The position numbers and the translations under genes were made by a program. The notes beneath the pieces were generated by a model. That model was not told the origin of the DNA and did no database searches. It worked only from the letters and a program-made list of their open reading frames with translations. A DNA stretch of 45,167 nucleotides from an uncultured Fidelibacterota bacterium (GTDB taxonomy: Bacteria; Fidelibacterota; Marinisomatia; Marinisomatales; UBA1611): NCBI GenBank assembly GCA_902559415.1, contig CACEHW010000006.1, forward strand, positions 1 through 45,167. The letters are read 5' to 3'. Positions within the stretch are counted from its first letter, which is position 1. The number at the start of each line of letters is the position of its first letter. Positions 1 to 14,755 of the stretch are shown in pieces.

Positions 1-654
1 CTTAACACTTTCTAAAAACTCTTTTGAGGTTGTTGTCGCCGTGAAATGTACTGGAATTGTCATACCAGGAATAGCATCTTGCGACACTCTTAGCTCAGGT
101 AATTTAAAATTATGAATTACATCCTTGGAGGATAGATCAACTCTTATTTTTTTATTTACAGGAATATGCATTTGGTTTTGAAGAATAATATCATCTTTAG
201 CAAATTCATCCGATCTATCTATTCCAATAAAATTTTGTTCAGATTCATCAACTAGATTAATATCCGTTCTGCCAAATACACCATCTACTCCAGGATAATG
301 AATGTTCCAAGCAAACTGCTGAGCTATGACTCTTATATTCACAGCATCTCTACTATCAGGGACATCATTGACCCGATACGCCCACACTGGATACGAAAAA
401 CCAAATAATGCAATGATTTCAACAATAGCAACAGCACCTTCTAAAACAGAAGATAAATGAGATTTTACACCATAGTAATCTGCCTTTTTATTCCTAGAAG
501 CTCTAAATTTGTAAAGACTTACAATGAAGAATACTCCCCAACCTAAAAATAAATAAAGCATCAACCAATGCATTAAAACGTTAGCGTTATCTATATACTC
601 ACCTTGAATTGATAAATTCTGTGGCAGCCCAAAACTATGTAAAAATTCTAACAA
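1..654 (-). CDS. coxB: Cytochrome c oxidase subunit II, partial (3' end outside window)
   Basis: The 218 visible codons encode the membrane-anchored N-terminal part of subunit II, which carries the CuA site that accepts electrons for the aa3 oxidase. Two hydrophobic helices (about residues 28-48 and 66-90) are followed by the family motifs AQQFAWNIHYPG and HNFKLPELRVSQDAIPGM. The CuA Cys-x3-Cys motif and any fused cytochrome c domain would lie beyond base 1, so neither can be judged here. I chose the TTG at 654: it follows the stop of the upstream 73-aa gene by three bases and has an AGGAAG ribosome site eight bases upstream. The next in-frame ATG (residue 31) would remove residues before the first helix. 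The gene is last in the visible cox cluster, and its position after subunits I, III and IV is unusual because coxB commonly comes first. The family call is secure; the start is likely. Confidence 0.95.
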   Translation of the reverse strand, partial: MLEFLHSFGLPQNLSIQGEYIDNANVLMHWLMLYLFLGWGVFFIVSLYKFRASRNKKADYYGVKSHLSSVLEGAVAIVEIIALFGFSYPVWAYRVNDVPDSRDAVNIRVIAQQFAWNIHYPGVDGVFGRTDINLVDESEQNFIGIDRSDEFAKDDIILQNQMHIPVNKKIRVDLSSKDVIHNFKLPELRVSQDAIPGMTIPVHFTATTTSKEFLESVK

Positions 655-2035: not shown

Positions 2036-3758
2036 TTATTTCTCAAATTGCGGTTTAAAATCTTTTTTAGCATCTGGAACACTATACTCATACGAATTGT
2101 GATATACATTTACTGGCTTATCAAAGTTCCCATGTCCTACTGGAGGGGAAGGAGCAGCCCACTCTATTGTTGTAGAGTCCCAAGGATTTCTTGAAGCTTT
2201 ATCTCCTGAAAATAATGACATAATAATATTAACAATAAAAGGTATTTGAGCTAAACCGAGACAAAAAGCTGAGATTGACATGAACTCATTCCACTCTAAA
2301 ACACCACTAGCATGAGCATAAGACTGTCCTCCATCAGCTAACCTTCTTGAAACTCCTGCGAGACCTTGTATAAACATCGGCATAAAAATTCCATTCATAA
2401 AAATTAAAGATGGCCAAAAATGAAGTTTCCCAAGCATTTCACTCATTTTTTTGCCTGTCATTTTCGGGAACCAGTAATATATACCTGCAAATAGTGCAAA
2501 GATAGTACCAGGCGCAACAACATAATGAAAATGACCAATCACATAATACGTATCATGGAGATAAATGTCAGATGCTGCTAGACCTAGAGGCAAACCAGTT
2601 AAACCTCCAATACCAAACATTGGTAGAAATGCCAATGCAAACAGCATAGGAGTATTAAACCTTATTGATCCTCCCCAAAGAGATAGAAAATAAGAAGTTA
2701 AAATTACAACTGAAGGTATTGAAATTATCATCGTAGTAGTCTGAAAAAATGCGCTCATAGCTTGTCCCATGCCTGTCAAAAAACATGTGATGAGCCCAAA
2801 CAATAAAAGAAACAAAACCTAAAAAGACCATTGAATAGACAATTGATTTAAAACCCCAAATTGGTTTCCTAGTATTATTTGCTAAAATCTCACCAACTAT
2901 TCCAAGCGCTGGAAGAATTAATACATAAACTTCTGGATGTGCTAAAAACCAAAATAAATGCTGCCATAATAATGGAGAACCAGAACCTGCTACATCTACT
3001 ATCTCACCAGACATAACCAATCCACTAGGTAAAAAGAAACTAGTACTTGCTACTCTATCCATTAGTTGCATTACAGCTGCTGCCTCAAGAGGAGGGAAAG
3101 CCAAAACAAGAAGAAAAGATGTCACAAATTGAGCCCAAACAAAAATAGGTAATCTCATCCAAGTCAACCCGGGCGCTCTTAATTGAACAATGGTAACAAT
3201 AATATTCATTGAACCAAGTAAGGATGAGGTAATCAAAAAGATCATGGATATTAACCATATAGTTTGTCCATTTTCAAAAATGGATAATGGCGGATAAGAT
3301 GTCCAACCTGATCTAGCCGCACCCTCTGGCATAAAAAAACTAGAAATCATTATAACACCACCAACAAAATACGTCCAGTAGCTAGCGGCATTTAATTTTG
3401 GAAATGCCATATCAATAGCGCCAATTTGAAGAGGAACTAAATAATTACCAAAGGCACCAACTGCAAGAGGAACAATACCTAAAAAAATCATAATTGTGCC
3501 GTGCATTGCACCAAGAGAGTTGTATTGCTCTGAAGCTAATACGCCACCCTCACCAAAAATAAAACCAACTATCGGGATTTCTGTCCCTGGGTAAGCTAAC
3601 TGCCAACGCATGATAGCCATTAAAGAAAAACCAAATAAAAGAAATAGTAATGAAGTAATACCGTATTGTATACCAATTACTTTATGATCTACAGAAAAAA
3701 TATATTTCTGAATGAAGTTTTCTTCAGGGTGATCGTGATGATTATTATCTGAACTCAA
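2036..3758 (-). CDS. coxA: Cytochrome c oxidase subunit I, interrupted by a one-base frameshift
   Basis: This is the catalytic subunit of an aa3-type oxidase, which reduces oxygen to water and pumps protons. One extra base in a run of six T residues (coding strand, positions 2783-2778) splits it into two reading frames. Removing one T gives a continuous 573-residue protein. In the joined protein, His86 and His411 match the low-spin heme ligands, His409 the high-spin heme ligand, and His274, His323 and His324 the CuB ligands. HPEVY (274-278) carries the cross-linked Tyr and the Glu276 of A1-type oxidases. The upstream frame runs off after WAHHMFF and the downstream frame resumes at LTGMGQAMSAFF, which is standard family sequence. 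Everything else looks intact, so a base-calling or assembly error is the likeliest cause. The gene follows the ferredoxin gene and precedes coxC. Confidence 0.95.
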
Positions 3759-5720: not shown

Positions 5721-6566
5721 ATGAAAAATAAAATCATATATCTACTTGTTATTTTCATCTACTCATGTGGAGAAAATAATAAAACATATAATGTAAATGG
5801 AGTAGTGATCAATATTGATAAAAGTGAACGTTCAATAGTAGTTGATCATGACTCTATACCTGGATTTATGATGCCAATGGTGATGCCGTTTAATGTAAAA
5901 AATATAGATGCAGTAAAAGGACTAAGTCTCAATGATAGCATCCATTTTAAATTTACGATAACTGATAAATCTAGCTACGCTCATGATTTTGTAGTTGTTG
6001 GTAAAAGATCCAATGAGACTGATGAAGATGACTTTTGGGAAGATGATGAATACAAAGAAAAAAAAATAGGTGAAGAGATTAGTAACATAACCCTAATCAA
6101 TTTAGATGGTAAAGAAGTAAATCTCGATCAGTTCGAGGACAAATATATTTTTATTTCTTTTATCTTTACCAGATGCCCTGTGCCAAACATGTGTCCAGCA
6201 GTTGTGATAAAAAATGGCGTTTTAGCTCGAAAATTCAAAGAAACAGATAAAATAAAATTTATTATGATCAGCTTTGATTACATTTATGATACTCCAGAAG
6301 TTTTAGGTTCGTATTATAGTGATGCGATTAGCAATTTCCCAAACTGGACGGCTTGGTCTAGCGTAGGAAAAATCAGTGACCTTTATACTTTGTCTTCCGA
6401 AATAGGTTGTGAATATTGGGGCATAGAAAAAAATAATATTGGGCACAATCTTCGATCAGCATTGATTGGGCCAAGAAGAAAACTTTTAAATACTTGGGAA
6501 GGAGATGATTGGCTGGCTAGCTCAGTAGGAAAAGAGATTGATTATTACATTAATGTCTTAAAATAA
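5721..6566 (+). CDS. CusF-like domain fused to SCO1/SenC copper chaperone (lipoprotein)
   Basis: This 281-residue protein starts with a lipoprotein-type signal (IYSC, Cys16). A CusF-type copper-binding domain follows (about 22-95, motif DHDSIPGFMMPMVMPF). An acidic linker (about 98-112) leads to a SCO/thioredoxin-fold domain (about 117-280). SCO proteins deliver copper to the CuA site of subunit II. The copper-binding pair is Cys152 and Cys158, spaced Cys-x5-Cys (RCPVPNMCP) rather than the usual Cys-x3-Cys, with a conserved His at 242. Met residues of the CusF part and the acidic linker add metal-binding capacity. The start codon follows the terminator T-tract with no ribosome site, but the signal peptide supports it. 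The stop lies three bases from the convergent octaheme cytochrome stop. Confidence 0.9.
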   Translation: MKNKIIYLLVIFIYSCGENNKTYNVNGVVINIDKSERSIVVDHDSIPGFMMPMVMPFNVKNIDAVKGLSLNDSIHFKFTITDKSSYAHDFVVVGKRSNETDEDDFWEDDEYKEKKIGEEISNITLINLDGKEVNLDQFEDKYIFISFIFTRCPVPNMCPAVVIKNGVLARKFKETDKIKFIMISFDYIYDTPEVLGSYYSDAISNFPNWTAWSSVGKISDLYTLSSEIGCEYWGIEKNNIGHNLRSALIGPRRKLLNTWEGDDWLASSVGKEIDYYINVLK

Positions 6567-6569
6567 GAA

Positions 6570-9569
6570 TTAATAATCTTCATCATCCCAGTCATCTTCA
6601 TCATCCCAGTCATCTTCATCATCATAATCATCACTACCATCTGAAAAATCGTATCCATTTTCATCAAAATACTCTTTTATTTCGTCTGAGATATCAACTT
6701 TACCTTTTATATTCCACATATAATCTCTAAGGCCTTCGAGCATTGCCTCTTGATTACCTTTAAGCTTAACCAAATCTTTTCCCCAAATCTCAACAGCATC
6801 ATCGGTCTCTAACACATCTGGTGTTGGAAGATAAGGTGCTGGCATTTTTGTACCAGGCATAATCGCCTGAGGCTCTCTTAACCAGTCAACGAGCCATTCA
6901 GGATTTAACCTCTCTTTTGTGAGCGCTAAATTAGGAGCCCAGGTTGATGCAACCTGAGTTGGGAACTCTGTTCCATAAAAGTGACAATTATTACAAGCAC
7001 CCAGTTCATGAACTTTTTCTCCAGCTTTAAACTTACTGCTCTTTGCGGCAAATTCGTGTGGGGCTCTGTATCCGGTATTCTCATCATCAATACTTTGGAA
7101 GTATTTTATGATGGTATCCCACTCCTGATCATTGATCTGGTGGAAACTCGGCATTCTAACCTGAAGATTAGGTCTCACTGTCATAGGATTATTAAAAAAC
7201 TTAATGAGCCAATTAGGATTAGTTTTCCTACCTTGAGAATGCAAATTCGGAGGACCATACTCTGGTGGGCCAATATGCTCAACTAGCTGACCACCTCTAT
7301 TTTCAATTAAATGACAGCCCTGACAATTATACTTTTTTACTAATCTATGACCTTCTTTATTATAATCTGGAACTTTCTTATGGGCGAGTAATGGCTCTCC
7401 GACTTTGTCAGTATTGAAAGATAACACTGCCATGGTTACAGCTTCGATCTCTTCTTCAGTAAAATGAAAATTAGGCATTCTTAGTAAATCTAGAGGGTCA
7501 CTTTCTTTACCTCTATCATATATCCTAGGTGTGCGTAATTTATTTTCAATCCAATCATGAATCGTATGAGGTATATCATGATAAAGTCCAAAATCAAATT
7601 TATCAACAGGCTTTGAACCTTCTTGGGTAATTTCTACACCAATTGGTTTAGCATCCATAAAACCATCAATATTATGGCAACCATAACAGCCATAGTGTCT
7701 TATACTTTTACCTCCCACAAAAGACATCTTCTCATTTTTTGTCATTTTTGATGCTTTTTCAATTGCATACTTCTCTGGATTCATCTTCATGAGCCAATCT
7801 AATGTTAGCTCATCTAAAACTTCATCGTCAGCCTCTGGTGCGTCCAATTGATCAAAGTCGTAGTTCTTATTATCGTATAAATATGCTGTAATATCCCTAG
7901 CATCACTATCACTTAAACGAAGATCTGGCATTCTAGTAGAAGGCATATATTCATGTGGCTTCTTCAGCCAGTTAAACAACCACTCAGGTGTAACTTTTGA
8001 TCCCATACCAATTAAATTTGGACCTTGGAGCTTGGTTAATTCTTTAAAAGTAGTAGGAGATGGAGCTAGAGATGGATCTTGCTCTTTTACGTGACAACCC
8101 ATACATCCTACAGCTGAGAAAACTTTTTCACCATTTGAAGGATCGCCTAAATATTTTGATGGATTCTTCGAATTTTTAACTTCTTTGCCTTCAAATAGGT
8201 AATGTGTGATTGAGGCAATCTCTGTAATGTTCCTCTTTGCTACGTTTGGCTTTTCTTGGTTTGCCTGTTCAAAGATATGAGGCATACGAGTATTATACCT
8301 AAATGCACGAGGATTTTTAATCCATTTCGCTACCCAATCAGGATGTGATTTCTCATTTAATTTTCTAAGATCAGGGCCAGATTTACCTTTTGATTCCCAA
8401 TTCCCTGATACGTGACAACCATTACAACCAGATCGGTCAACTAAAGTAAGACCTAGATTAATTTTCTCAGCACCAGCTAAATCACTAGTATTTTGATGAC
8501 ACTTAAAACAACTAGCTTGGGTATACCTGGTAGGTAGCATCGGCTGAAGCCAATGCTTAACTGGTTTCCAATGGTATTTTTCTTTCCACTCCTTTTTTTG
8601 TTCAGGAGAGTTTGGGGTATGAGCTGAAGAAATAAAAGAAGTACCCCTACTTCTTCCTGAATGGCAAGAAGTGCAACCAAAAGACTCTTCAGGGTGAGGT
8701 GACTTACTTGTTAAATAAAGGTCAAGATCTGGGTGAGTAGTGTAGGGCTGCTCCGCATCTTTAAAATCCGGATTTGCAATTCCTAGATGACAGCTAGTGC
8801 AACGATCTACTGCAGGCATAGCAGCAAAATTGACATCATAGAGAACGTCCTTGACAACTGTCTGCTTAACTTTATAATAAGGATCCATAAAATCTAGAAT
8901 AGGCAAATCACGAACGATATCGCCAATTTGATTCATGAATGACATCTTTGATCTATCTAATAGGTTTAATTTATTCTGCGCTAGATCAACCTTCTTTAAT
9001 ACTCTATCCCTTTCATCTTGAGCGATTTTAATATCTGCTTTTAAACCTTTAAGTTGCTTCTCTAAGCCACCGATTTCTATTTCAAACTGCTCTTTTTCAA
9101 CTTTTATTTCATTAAAGGCTGCTAATTTTTCTTTGTAATTTTTCCGGATTTTTTCTGCTTTTTCTACATCTTTAAGATTTGCACTCTCAAGTTCAAATTT
9201 AAGTACATCCAACTTCGCTTTTTTCTCAGCATATCTTAGATTGACTTTATAAAACCCAGCTCTGAGAATACCTAATTCACTGTTAATGTTTTTTACTTTC
9301 TCAGACTTGTCATCATAAAGTTTAACCGCTCTAGCGAGTTCTAATTCGTAGTCCTCTGATTTGCCCTCAACCAATGACTTTTCTTCGTTCAGCTTTGTTT
9401 CAGCAATTGCAATTTGAAGCTTCCTAAACTCTTTCTGGTACTCTTTAAACTCATCATCATTATCATCAATGAATATCCAAACTAAAACAAGCAGAAATAC
9501 TATTGATGAAATAGCAAACCACTTGTTTAGTAGATTAATATCCCAATATCGTTCGTCGTTTTTAAACAT
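6570..9569 (-). CDS. Octaheme cytochrome c with N-terminal coiled coil (putative complex III subunit)
   Basis: This 999-residue protein is anchored by one helix (about 17-34). A long charged coiled coil follows (about 36-205). The heme region has eight CxxCH motifs, at residues 257, 299, 354, 382, 489, 628, 749 and 859. The first three sit close together without nearby Met ligands and form a triheme-like module. Each of the last five precedes an R/K-Met-Pro segment (Met429, 547, 698, 806, 909), as in class I cytochrome c domains. The tail (about 978-999) is almost pure Asp/Glu/Trp/Tyr. The gene ends the Rieske-cytochrome b operon, which has no cytochrome c1 gene, so it probably passes electrons from the Rieske centre to the oxidase or a carrier. 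The complex role is inference; heme number and layout are read directly. Confidence 0.93.
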   Translation of the reverse strand: MFKNDERYWDINLLNKWFAISSIVFLLVLVWIFIDDNDDEFKEYQKEFRKLQIAIAETKLNEEKSLVEGKSEDYELELARAVKLYDDKSEKVKNINSELGILRAGFYKVNLRYAEKKAKLDVLKFELESANLKDVEKAEKIRKNYKEKLAAFNEIKVEKEQFEIEIGGLEKQLKGLKADIKIAQDERDRVLKKVDLAQNKLNLLDRSKMSFMNQIGDIVRDLPILDFMDPYYKVKQTVVKDVLYDVNFAAMPAVDRCTSCHLGIANPDFKDAEQPYTTHPDLDLYLTSKSPHPEESFGCTSCHSGRSRGTSFISSAHTPNSPEQKKEWKEKYHWKPVKHWLQPMLPTRYTQASCFKCHQNTSDLAGAEKINLGLTLVDRSGCNGCHVSGNWESKGKSGPDLRKLNEKSHPDWVAKWIKNPRAFRYNTRMPHIFEQANQEKPNVAKRNITEIASITHYLFEGKEVKNSKNPSKYLGDPSNGEKVFSAVGCMGCHVKEQDPSLAPSPTTFKELTKLQGPNLIGMGSKVTPEWLFNWLKKPHEYMPSTRMPDLRLSDSDARDITAYLYDNKNYDFDQLDAPEADDEVLDELTLDWLMKMNPEKYAIEKASKMTKNEKMSFVGGKSIRHYGCYGCHNIDGFMDAKPIGVEITQEGSKPVDKFDFGLYHDIPHTIHDWIENKLRTPRIYDRGKESDPLDLLRMPNFHFTEEEIEAVTMAVLSFNTDKVGEPLLAHKKVPDYNKEGHRLVKKYNCQGCHLIENRGGQLVEHIGPPEYGPPNLHSQGRKTNPNWLIKFFNNPMTVRPNLQVRMPSFHQINDQEWDTIIKYFQSIDDENTGYRAPHEFAAKSSKFKAGEKVHELGACNNCHFYGTEFPTQVASTWAPNLALTKERLNPEWLVDWLREPQAIMPGTKMPAPYLPTPDVLETDDAVEIWGKDLVKLKGNQEAMLEGLRDYMWNIKGKVDISDEIKEYFDENGYDFSDGSDDYDDEDDWDDEDDWDDEDY
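6576..6629 (-). repeat. 18-base tandem repeat encoding the acidic tail
   Basis: The plus-strand unit atcttcatcatcccagtc is repeated exactly at 6576-6593 and 6594-6611, and a third, diverged copy ends near 6629. On the coding strand it encodes DDEDDW-type hexapeptides at the C-terminus of the octaheme cytochrome. An in-frame repeat of this kind can change copy number between strains without breaking the gene. Confidence 0.85.
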
Positions 9570-11525: not shown

Positions 11526-12080
11526 TTATACCTTAAGAGATGAGTCTTTATTTTCCCACTCACCTTTTTCCCATTTGTAGCTTTTTGTCTTGTCTACTAA
11601 AATTTGACCATCATCAGCAATCCCAATTTTAAATCGTTCTAATGGACGCGGAGCAGGTCCTTCAAAGTGTATTCCTGTCATTCTAAAACCACTTCCATGA
11701 CATGGGCACTTAAACTTATTATCCGTAGCTAACCAGTTTGGCGTACACCCTAGGTGAGTGCAAACAGTAGAAAGAGCAAATATTGACTCATCATCTCTAA
11801 CTATCCACGCGTTAAACTCTTTTTTGTAACGGATATCAACTGAGTTTGGAGCAAAATCTTCTGGATAACCTATTTTAAAAGATTGGGGTGGTTCGAAAAG
11901 AACATTTGGAAATAAAAATCTAATAATAACTGTGAAAAAACCCCCTGTAACTCCCACGAAAGCTATCCAACCAACTGCTAGCCAGCTAAAAAAGCTGCGC
12001 CTCTCCATTGAAGTTTTTCTGCCCTTACTGACAGATCCTACGGCTGCTCTCGGTGCAGCAGAGCTTTTCGATTCACTCAT
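11526..12080 (-). CDS. qcrA: Rieske iron-sulfur protein
   Basis: This 184-residue protein carries the Rieske 2Fe-2S motifs Cys107-Thr-His109-Leu-Gly-Cys112 and Cys125-Pro-Cys127-His128-Gly-Ser, giving two Cys and two His ligands plus the disulfide pair. A twin-arginine motif (RRSFF, 27-31) precedes the single membrane helix (about 33-55), so Tat-dependent insertion of the folded protein is likely. The first 24 residues form an Ala/Ser/Lys-rich cytoplasmic extension. The start ATG overlaps the stop of the HEAT gene by four bases, which implies translational coupling. It transfers electrons from quinol at the cytochrome b site to the cytochrome c subunit. Confidence 0.96.
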   Translation of the reverse strand: MSESKSSAAPRAAVGSVSKGRKTSMERRSFFSWLAVGWIAFVGVTGGFFTVIIRFLFPNVLFEPPQSFKIGYPEDFAPNSVDIRYKKEFNAWIVRDDESIFALSTVCTHLGCTPNWLATDNKFKCPCHGSGFRMTGIHFEGPAPRPLERFKIGIADDGQILVDKTKSYKWEKGEWENKDSSLKV

Positions 12081-12970
12081 AATTTATTGGTTCCGTTACT
12101 ATATTTTTTTTCTAAAGCTTTAATCGCAGCATCTCTAATACTGAGATCTTTATCATTTTTAGATAGTGAAATTAGGTTATCTTCGAACCTTTTATCAAAT
12201 AAAATAGAAGCTGTTTTTATTGCAATCATCAAAACCCGTTTTTGTTCGACTGGATCGATCTCACTAAACTTATTTAAATATTCTCTATCAAGTAGGCCTT
12301 CAATAATATATGCACCCTCACTATTACCCATTTTTGCTAACGCTATCGCAGCATCCCACCTGATATTTGCTTGCTCATCTTCTAATAACTTTATTAAAAA
12401 AGGAACTGCCGAAATATCTCCTATCATTCCCAAAGAAATTGTGGCAGATAAACGCTCAGATTCAGAATCTGCGGTTTTGATCAATGTACTGATTGCGTTT
12501 ACAGCAGGTGGATATTGGATCATACCCAGTGCCTGTATAGCTGCAATTCTAGTCTCAATACTTTCATCTTTCAATCCATCTAAAAGAGTCTCACCAAAAA
12601 TTGTGTCCTGAGTTGCTCCCATCGCCATTGCTAAATAAGACCTCACAAGAGCATCATCATGAATAGATCTCTCGTAGGCTGAGGATAGCTGATCTTTAAA
12701 AGAATCCGATAGAGGATCTCTATCTGGATTATTTAATACTTTAGCAAGTTCAAATGCAGATTGCCACCTCTTAGATGCAGAACCAATTTTTACTTGATTT
12801 AAAAGCTCTTCAACGTCATTTGTTTCATACGTTACAAATTTAAATAGTAGAAAAAATACAGCCCCAAAAACAGCTATCATAAAGGGTATTAAGAAAAACG
12901 AGTAGAACAGTACATATACTCTACTATTTTCACTTTTCTTCTGCTCGTCTGTTTTAATTTTCTCTTCCAT
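12077..12970 (-). CDS. Membrane-anchored HEAT-repeat protein of the complex III operon
   Basis: This 297-residue protein has a charged N-terminus, one membrane helix (about 18-44) and then a run of helical pairs (about 95-290) of HEAT/PBS-lyase type. Typical repeat segments are TRIAAIQALGMI, ERLSATISLGMI, NIRWDAAIALAKMG and SIRDAAIKALEKK. The repeats should form a curved scaffold for protein binding; no enzyme motif is visible. Its stop overlaps the Rieske start by four bases, so it is made together with the Rieske protein. An assembly or structural role in the b6-type complex is inferred from that coupling. Which side of the membrane the repeats face is not certain. Confidence 0.85.
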   Translation of the reverse strand: MEEKIKTDEQKKSENSRVYVLFYSFFLIPFMIAVFGAVFFLLFKFVTYETNDVEELLNQVKIGSASKRWQSAFELAKVLNNPDRDPLSDSFKDQLSSAYERSIHDDALVRSYLAMAMGATQDTIFGETLLDGLKDESIETRIAAIQALGMIQYPPAVNAISTLIKTADSESERLSATISLGMIGDISAVPFLIKLLEDEQANIRWDAAIALAKMGNSEGAYIIEGLLDREYLNKFSEIDPVEQKRVLMIAIKTASILFDKRFEDNLISLSKNDKDLSIRDAAIKALEKKYSNGTNKL

Positions 12971-13441: not shown

Positions 13442-14755
13442 TTATTTATTGCGCTTAGCTTTAACAATAGCGGCTTTAATTTTACCTCGAAGCACTTTGT
13501 TATCTAAAGCATTAATCTCTTCCATATTACCATTTAGACCGTCAGCTATTAACCTTTCTTTCATTTCATCTTCAGACTCATCTTTTTGATCAACGGATGG
13601 TGGCGCAGTCGCTGATACATCAGGCATTGTAGGCCTCTCTGCTGAACCTCTTTTGATTTTAACCAATAGCGCTTTTGCTTTGCCTCTTGTAACTTTATCA
13701 TCAATAGCATCAACCGCTTCTGCATTACCATCAAGTACCTGATTAACAACTAATGCCACCTGATCATCCTTAGATAATTGACTACTCGCTGTTGAACTAG
13801 AAGCGCCTTTTCCTGCAGCAGGAGCTGAAGCAACGCCATCAACTTTATCAGGTATAGGCGGTCTTTCTGCTGTCCCTCTTTTTATTTTTATTAACATGGC
13901 TTTTGCCTTGCCTCGGGTAATTACATCCGATGTGCTATTCAGAGGATCCATATCACCATCTAATGCTTTGTTGACAATTACCGCTACATTATAAGCTCGT
14001 AATTCTGGAGAATCTGTTGATGAATCTGAGCCTTTATCATCATCATTTATTTCAATTGTAGGGGTAATATCAGCAAGCCTCTGAAGTACCTTAGATTTAG
14101 TTTTATTCCAGCCAAGCAGTGATAAAAATGAAAACGGCCCTCTACTAAAACGATTACAAGTAACGAAAACACCGTTTTTTGATTCTTCTATTCTAAATGA
14201 AATATACTCAGAAAAAAATGGACTCATTTTAAAATCAAAACCGAATTCTTTTTCTTTTTCAACTGTAATAATTCTACAACGGAACCAAGGAGCTAATGTG
14301 GCAGGTCTAATTTTAAAAAATGAACCAGGTTTCAAATCCAGCTTATCAAACGAGAATTTATGAACATACCTATCTGTATCTACATCCGCAATAGCTCTCT
14401 GAATTCCTGAAAACCAGATATTGTACATCTCAAGTGATGTAATCATCTCCCACACAATTTCTTTACTACTTAGAAAATGATGTTCTACCTGACTCTCAGC
14501 CTGAAATGGTACCCACACAGCATAGCTTGAACCGATACCATCGTATGGGACATCTGGGATACTTAGGCTAGTTTTTGGCCTTTCGTATCCATCAAAAGAA
14601 ATTTCATGAGTAGAATAGTGTTGGAACTCACCGTCGTCTGTTTTAACTAAGTACTTTGTTGGATAGTAAAAAATTCTTTGTAGAGTTCCAGACTGACCAG
14701 ATTCTTTGACAATGCAAGAAGTTCCAAGTTCAATTTGATTTAGAGGTTTTGACAT
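13442..14755 (-). CDS. SRPBCC-domain protein with three C-terminal repeats, complex III operon leader
   Basis: This 437-residue protein has no signal peptide or membrane helix and should be cytoplasmic. Residues 5-55 look like a small beta-barrel. Residues about 75-230 resemble an SRPBCC (START-like) domain with a hydrophobic ligand cavity. A Ser/Asp linker leads to three related modules of about 45 residues (256-303, 333-378, 398-437) with the pattern VNxxLDG ... D..V.RGKAKA.L.KIKR. The first two end AERP-x-x-PD and are separated by Ala/Ser-rich linkers. The modules are small charged helical hairpins of unknown fold. As first gene of the Rieske-cytochrome b operon it may aid assembly or handle a lipid, quinone or heme. 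That is inference; the repeats are read directly. Confidence 0.8.
   Translation of the reverse strand: MSKPLNQIELGTSCIVKESGQSGTLQRIFYYPTKYLVKTDDGEFQHYSTHEISFDGYERPKTSLSIPDVPYDGIGSSYAVWVPFQAESQVEHHFLSSKEIVWEMITSLEMYNIWFSGIQRAIADVDTDRYVHKFSFDKLDLKPGSFFKIRPATLAPWFRCRIITVEKEKEFGFDFKMSPFFSEYISFRIEESKNGVFVTCNRFSRGPFSFLSLLGWNKTKSKVLQRLADITPTIEINDDDKGSDSSTDSPELRAYNVAVIVNKALDGDMDPLNSTSDVITRGKAKAMLIKIKRGTAERPPIPDKVDGVASAPAAGKGASSSTASSQLSKDDQVALVVNQVLDGNAEAVDAIDDKVTRGKAKALLVKIKRGSAERPTMPDVSATAPPSVDQKDESEDEMKERLIADGLNGNMEEINALDNKVLRGKIKAAIVKAKRNK

Follow-up and report, generated by a model that had tools for sequence, protein, structure and literature searches.

The octaheme gene and its operon

The window is a 45,167-nucleotide stretch of DNA from a genome assembly of 1.21 Mb that is 65% complete. 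Its relatives belong to the Marinimicrobia (SAR406, today the Fidelibacterota), uncultured bacteria that are abundant in the ocean. The genes of interest are listed in table 1. They run in the order HEAT-repeat protein, Rieske protein, cytochrome b6-like subunit, subunit IV-like protein and, last, a large octaheme protein that we call OctaC. The Rieske gene matches PF00355 above cutoff and carries the motifs CTHLGC and CPCHGSG; the cytochrome b genes match PF00033 and PF00032, also above cutoff. The initial annotation had OctaC closing a Rieske–cytochrome b operon, as it does, but its gene set was short by one, for the HEAT-repeat gene precedes that of the Rieske protein. The product of this additional gene is perhaps an accessory or assembly subunit. 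The 437-residue protein listed at the end of table 1 has no Pfam match; it adjoins the operon in relatives too.

Table 1. Features of the window, in order of position (aa, residues of the encoded protein).
Feature	Position	Strand	Remarks
CoxB, aa3 subunit II	1..654	(-)	cut by window edge
CoxA, aa3 subunit I	2036..3758	(-)	in two overlapping reading frames
Dicluster [4Fe-4S] ferredoxin, 107 aa	3783..4106	(-)	between OctaC and CoxA; conserved in family
CusF-like domain fused to SCO1-like domain	5721..6566		beside cytochrome genes
OctaC, putative octaheme c subunit, 999 aa	6570..9569	(-)	ORF and motif scan; in 113/245 phylum genomes
OctaC Asp/Trp-rich C-terminal tail	6573..6650	(-)	common to CoxB of relatives
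OctaC heme 8, CNNCH, aa 859-863	6981..6995	(-)	ligand Met909
OctaC heme 7, CQGCH, aa 749-753	7311..7325	(-)	ligand Met806
OctaC heme 6, CYGCH, aa 628-632	7674..7688	(-)	ligand Met698
OctaC heme 5, CMGCH, aa 489-493	8091..8105	(-)	ligand Met547
OctaC heme 4, CNGCH, aa 382-386	8412..8426	(-)	ligand Met429
OctaC heme 3, CFKCH, aa 354-358	8496..8510	(-)	probably bis-His
OctaC heme 2, CTSCH, aa 299-303	8661..8675	(-)	probably bis-His
OctaC heme 1, CTSCH, aa 257-261	8787..8801	(-)	probably bis-His via one of invariant His 279/292/317
OctaC coiled-coil arm, aa 39-206	8952..9455	(-)	composition, 3.5-residue periodicity, AlphaFold helices
OctaC single membrane anchor, aa 17-35	9465..9521	(-)	hydropathy
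Subunit IV-like cytochrome b C-terminal half, 373 aa	9585..10706	(-)	8 predicted membrane helices; Qo motif APWY
Cytochrome b6-like subunit, 263 aa	10731..11522	(-)	Cys63 at b6f heme cn cysteine region
Rieske [2Fe-2S] subunit	11526..12080	(-)	
HEAT-repeat protein, membrane-anchored	12077..12970	(-)	first in cluster; conserved in relatives
437-aa protein	13442..14755		no Pfam match

Anatomy of OctaC

The reading frame, its one membrane helix, its eight CxxCH motifs and its Asp-rich tail are all as the initial annotation had described them. The charged coiled coil of about 170 residues that it described is also borne out: 44% of residues 39–206 are D, E, K or R, and AlphaFold predicts helices at residues 41–67, 71–86, 89–133 and 135–204 with pLDDT of about 69–89. 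A membrane anchor followed by a coiled coil is thus supported by the helix at residues 17–35, by the charged periodicity and by the predicted helices spanning residues 41–204. The AlphaFold model had a pLDDT of 50 when built from 17 close relatives and of 71.7 when built from 31 sequences. With the latter model, Foldseek returned nothing significant from the PDB; the best matches were coiled coils.

Are the heme motifs genuine, and what might be their axial ligands? To address these questions we examined an alignment of 31 homologues, 36–91% identical to the window protein. All eight heme histidines are invariant (31/31), as are Met 429, 547, 698, 806 and 909, an invariance that argues against a chance origin of the motifs. 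The five methionines belong to the [RK]MP segments at residues 428, 546, 697, 805 and 908, with which the last five hemes had been paired from the outset. The first three hemes had been noted as having no Met nearby, a description that can now be refined: three additional histidines, His 279, 292 and 317, are likewise invariant in 31/31, and so hemes 1–3 are probably bis-His. On the simplest reading of the sequence, the first three hemes of OctaC are probably bis-His and the remaining five His/Met. Pfam matches in the protein comprise domains of class I cytochrome c (PF13442, PF00034) and a c7/c3-like region across hemes 2–4.

The Rieske protein and the split cytochrome b

The closest PDB entry to the Rieske protein is 9rk3, Kustd1480 of Kuenenia, with 64 of 117 residues identical (55%) and the motif CPCHGSGF in common. 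In the same PDB comparison, Kuste4569 and the Rieske proteins of b6f and bc1 are much more distant. The soluble fragment of Kustd1480 has a measured potential of +335 mV (PMC12954380). From this value and from the likeness between the two proteins we infer that the Rieske protein of the window is likely to be of high potential.

The b6-like subunit has the two pairs of histidines for the b hemes, His113/His127 and His234/His249. Its Cys63, in the sequence WCMGG, aligns with YCLGG of the b6 structures, the site of the heme cn cysteine, and heme cn is probably present in the complex. The first histidine, His45 of FLHLHP, is spaced as would be expected for the extra b heme of the Kuenenia models, a suggestion that comes from counting residues against loop lengths. 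Eight helices are predicted for the subunit IV-like protein and five for its counterparts in the NAD(P)-linked SAR406 relatives. In both the window and its relatives KAPWYF occupies the PEWY position. We assume that the quinone is menaquinone.

OctaC as the probable c subunit of complex III

The usual c subunit of complex III is a cytochrome with one or two hemes, and it is the least conserved part of the complex. How general, then, is the association of the octaheme protein with the b6-type genes? In addition to its overall frequency in the phylum (table 1), OctaC is found in 43 of the 94 high-quality genomes. A scan of the genome contig collection gave 26 loci with an OctaC homologue, all of the SAR406 type. 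Viral contigs scanned with the OctaC alignment held no relative, and the plasmid records scanned gave only single cytochrome c domains. One record labelled Alphaproteobacteria has a SAR406-type operon, with 90% identity in b6, and is probably mis-binned.

The gene order of the window, from the HEAT-repeat gene through to OctaC, is kept in the closest relatives and on down to loci with 36–46% identity. All 90 of the b6-type matches listed fall in genomes that bear OctaC, and in 88 of these 90 the two genes lie no more than 6 kb apart on the same contig. In the remaining two, a gene lies at, or is split across, the end of a contig. A search for a separate cytochrome c1 or f turned up neither: among the 245 phylum genomes none matched cytochrome c1 (PF02167) and none matched cytochrome f (PF01333) above cutoff, with profiles that recognized their positive controls (Caulobacter in the case of c1) and that would miss some unrelated small c subunits. 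Matches to cytochrome f below cutoff were set aside; nearly all are in ORFs of about 1400 residues, a length like that of RNA polymerase beta'. The analysis thus turned up neither of the two findings that the initial annotation had named as counting against its proposal, a separate c1/f gene or homologues lying mostly apart from Rieske–cytochrome b genes.

The linkage of OctaC to b6, together with the absence of c1 and f, makes OctaC very probably the c subunit of this complex III, and its standing in place of cytochrome c1/f, as the initial annotation had proposed, is well supported by these genomic comparisons. We conclude, with a probability of about 0.87, that OctaC serves a menaquinol-oxidizing Rieske/cytochrome b6-type complex III of SAR406 as its high-potential c-type subunit.

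Might OctaC share the operon without being part of complex III, and act instead as an independent membrane-bound reductase or wire of the c type, serving for example a nitrogen oxide or an extracellular acceptor? Eight hemes are more than the replacement of c1 would need, and the three bis-His hemes recall, by motif, those of multiheme reductases. Against this, the linkage to b6 is strict and no other c-subunit gene was found. Moreover, five of the domains are His/Met class I domains, profile searches gave no match to the HAO or nitrite reductase families, and multiheme c subunits exist in the related Kuenenia complexes (PMC12954380). We regard a separate reductase as very improbable.

How might electrons pass through a complex III with OctaC as its c subunit? 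Quinol would be oxidized at the Qo site, the first electron passing to the Rieske cluster and from there to the octaheme subunit, while the second would cross the membrane by way of the b hemes, probably with the participation of heme cn. OctaC would stand in for cytochrome c1/f, with its single helix as the anchor and its coiled coil holding or wrapping the complex. The three bis-His hemes and the five tandem His/Met class I domains would then form a wire leading away from the membrane; with or without a small lipoprotein cytochrome c as intermediary, this wire may deliver electrons to CuA in the adjacent aa3 oxidase.

Relation to known complexes

The initial annotation spoke of a new complex III variant, which overstates the case. 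For Nitrospina, a Rieske protein and a b6 split from subunit IV were described in 2013, with an octaheme c of atypical form that is the sole c subunit; the arrangement in Kuenenia and Methylomirabilis is the same (PMC3578206). In 2025 Kuenenia complexes were modelled in which a hexa- or octaheme c replaces cytochrome f; in one of these, Kustd1485 has long helices that wrap the complex, and its c hemes are grouped in twos and threes (PMC12954380). In view of these precedents the complex encoded in the window is of a kind already known.

The closest likeness is to Kustd1480–1485 of Kuenenia. Like the window, this has a four-helix b6-like cytochrome b and a subunit IV-like protein, in one operon with the similar Rieske protein described above and with a multiheme c that is large and has long helices. 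The Kuenenia complex, however, includes an NAD(P) oxidoreductase subunit and a five-helix subunit IV (PMC12954380). The window operon has no NAD(P) oxidoreductase gene, there being only the separate 107-residue ferredoxin; its subunit IV has eight helices, and an aa3 operon adjoins it. Nitrospina gracilis and Methylomirabilis oxyfera have the same gene set but belong to other phyla and have another metabolism (PMC3578206). The comparison of OctaC with Kustd1485 and with the octaheme c proteins of Nitrospina and Methylomirabilis is one of gene order, anatomy and published description.

Within SAR406 itself there are NAD(P)-linked complexes (loci L060, L061 and L062) with a Rieske protein, b6 and an octaheme homologue of OctaC (E 1e-60 in the case of the L060 protein). 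These octaheme proteins are shorter, about 655–703 residues, and have no coiled coil; their operons include an FAD/[4Fe-4S] NAD(P)-oxidoreductase-like gene, and their b6 lacks the heme cn cysteine. Rieske, b6 and multiheme genes together with an NAD(P)-oxidoreductase-like gene, resembling the anammox complexes, occur at L060 1515-8304, L061 4585-10766 and L062 3688-9900, and also at L063 and L075.

How does the window compare with the more familiar complexes? With cytochrome b6f it shares the split between b6 (263 residues) and subunit IV (373 residues), the cysteine at the cn site and the Rieske protein; it differs in having no cytochrome f, APWY rather than PEWY, and additional helices in subunit IV. 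From bc1 it differs in the missing cytochrome c1. The actinobacterial bcc–aa3 is similar in its multiheme replacement of c1 and in the proposed direct link to aa3, but its QcrC has two hemes, its b is fused and its c subunit is of another architecture; the QcrC model scored 26.9 of 200 bits on OctaC, far below cutoff. Alternative complex III (ActABCDE) has neither Rieske protein nor cytochrome b, whereas the window has both; ActA gave a weak match to a single class I domain of OctaC. The octaheme proteins of the HAO/ONR type are mostly bis-His and have a catalytic heme; OctaC has class I domains with His/Met ligation, five in number, and gave no match to that family.

OctaC is thus a real, conserved and functionally interpretable protein, and the complex III that we describe is of a kind already published, found here in a phylum and a setting that are new for it. 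New are the wide distribution of OctaC across SAR406, its usual association with an aa3 operon without an NAD(P) module, and the tail common to OctaC and CoxB. Octaheme c subunits were previously known from a handful of nitrogen-cycle bacteria and were tied to unusual energetics. With a form that is widespread, linked to an oxidase and present in an abundant phylum of the sea, the purpose of eight hemes can be studied in a simpler setting, and the common tail makes a link between complexes III and IV in SAR406 directly testable.

The aa3 oxidase and the question of a carrier

To what acceptor does OctaC deliver its electrons? In every locus of the family with a contig long enough, aa3 Cox genes follow OctaC. 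Of the more distant loci, L066, L068, L070, L071 and L074 have them close behind OctaC; L067 has a CoxA fragment further from OctaC, and the stretch examined of L064, L065, L069, L072 and L073 contains no Cox gene. In those last five the acceptor need not be aa3.

CoxB of the window is incomplete. A full-length CoxB from the same genus (L138 2928-3767) carries the CuA motif and lacks a heme c domain; its C-terminal Asp/Trp tail, DDDDWGDDDW, resembles the tail of OctaC. When one fixed rule was applied, such a tail was present in 26 of 33 OctaC and 17 of 20 CoxB proteins, and in both proteins at 16 of 20 loci, counts that are not independent since the loci are related. It occurs in none of about 520 other ORFs of these loci, the one extra match being an OctaC fragment.

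The initial annotation suggested that OctaC may be wired directly to the aa3 oxidase as a supercomplex. If OctaC docks on CuA and needs no soluble carrier, as in the actinobacterial bcc–aa3, the Asp/Trp tails may join the two complexes via a common partner. The adjoining Cox operon and the restriction of the tail to OctaC and CoxB speak for this, as does one genome of the window's genus, G138, where the exact coding pattern of the tail is found in the OctaC and CoxB genes and nowhere else. In G138 and G140 (92% and 93% complete) matches to PF00034 and PF13442 occur in OctaC alone, and no PF00127 cupredoxin was found in the genus. These two genomes hinted at a general absence of a soluble carrier, which we rejected: a small lipoprotein cytochrome c, of about 130–150 residues with an extra CxxC (for example L135 575-967, and in L136, L140 and L141), is present in 25 of 33 family genomes. 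Nor would two acidic tails do other than repel one another unless a third, basic partner bound both.

Does the lipoprotein cytochrome c then carry electrons from OctaC to CuA, with the acidic tails as its docking surfaces, much as mitochondrial complex III has an acidic hinge region? Its frequency in the family favours such a shuttle, and so does a mature pI of 8.8 in one member of the genus. In two other family genomes, however, the calculated pI is 5.2 and 7.1, so the protein is not generally basic, and it is present in only two of the seven genomes of the window's genus; of the five in which it was not found, two are more than 90% complete. With no other cytochrome c match in G138 and G140 on the one side and the lipoprotein in 25 of 33 genomes on the other, direct transfer and a short shuttle are about equally likely, each falling somewhat short of even odds. 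We put forward as more doubtful the stronger proposal of a SAR406 III–IV unit, in which a wire of about 999 residues takes the place of c1 as well as that of the mobile carrier, and the near-identical tails on OctaC and CoxB serve to recognize or tether complexes III and IV. In the literature searched we found no description of such a tail-based coupling device.

Three further genes near OctaC call for comment. The ferredoxin has weak similarity (32% over 74 residues) to the [4Fe-4S] portion of the NAD(P) oxidoreductase from a related complex; electrons might pass between it and the b6 complex on the cytoplasmic side. The CusF–SCO1-like fusion probably delivers copper to CuA. The two CoxA frames overlap at 2655-2815, with a frame shift around 2742-2782; relatives have intact copies, and the split is probably an assembly or sequencing error.
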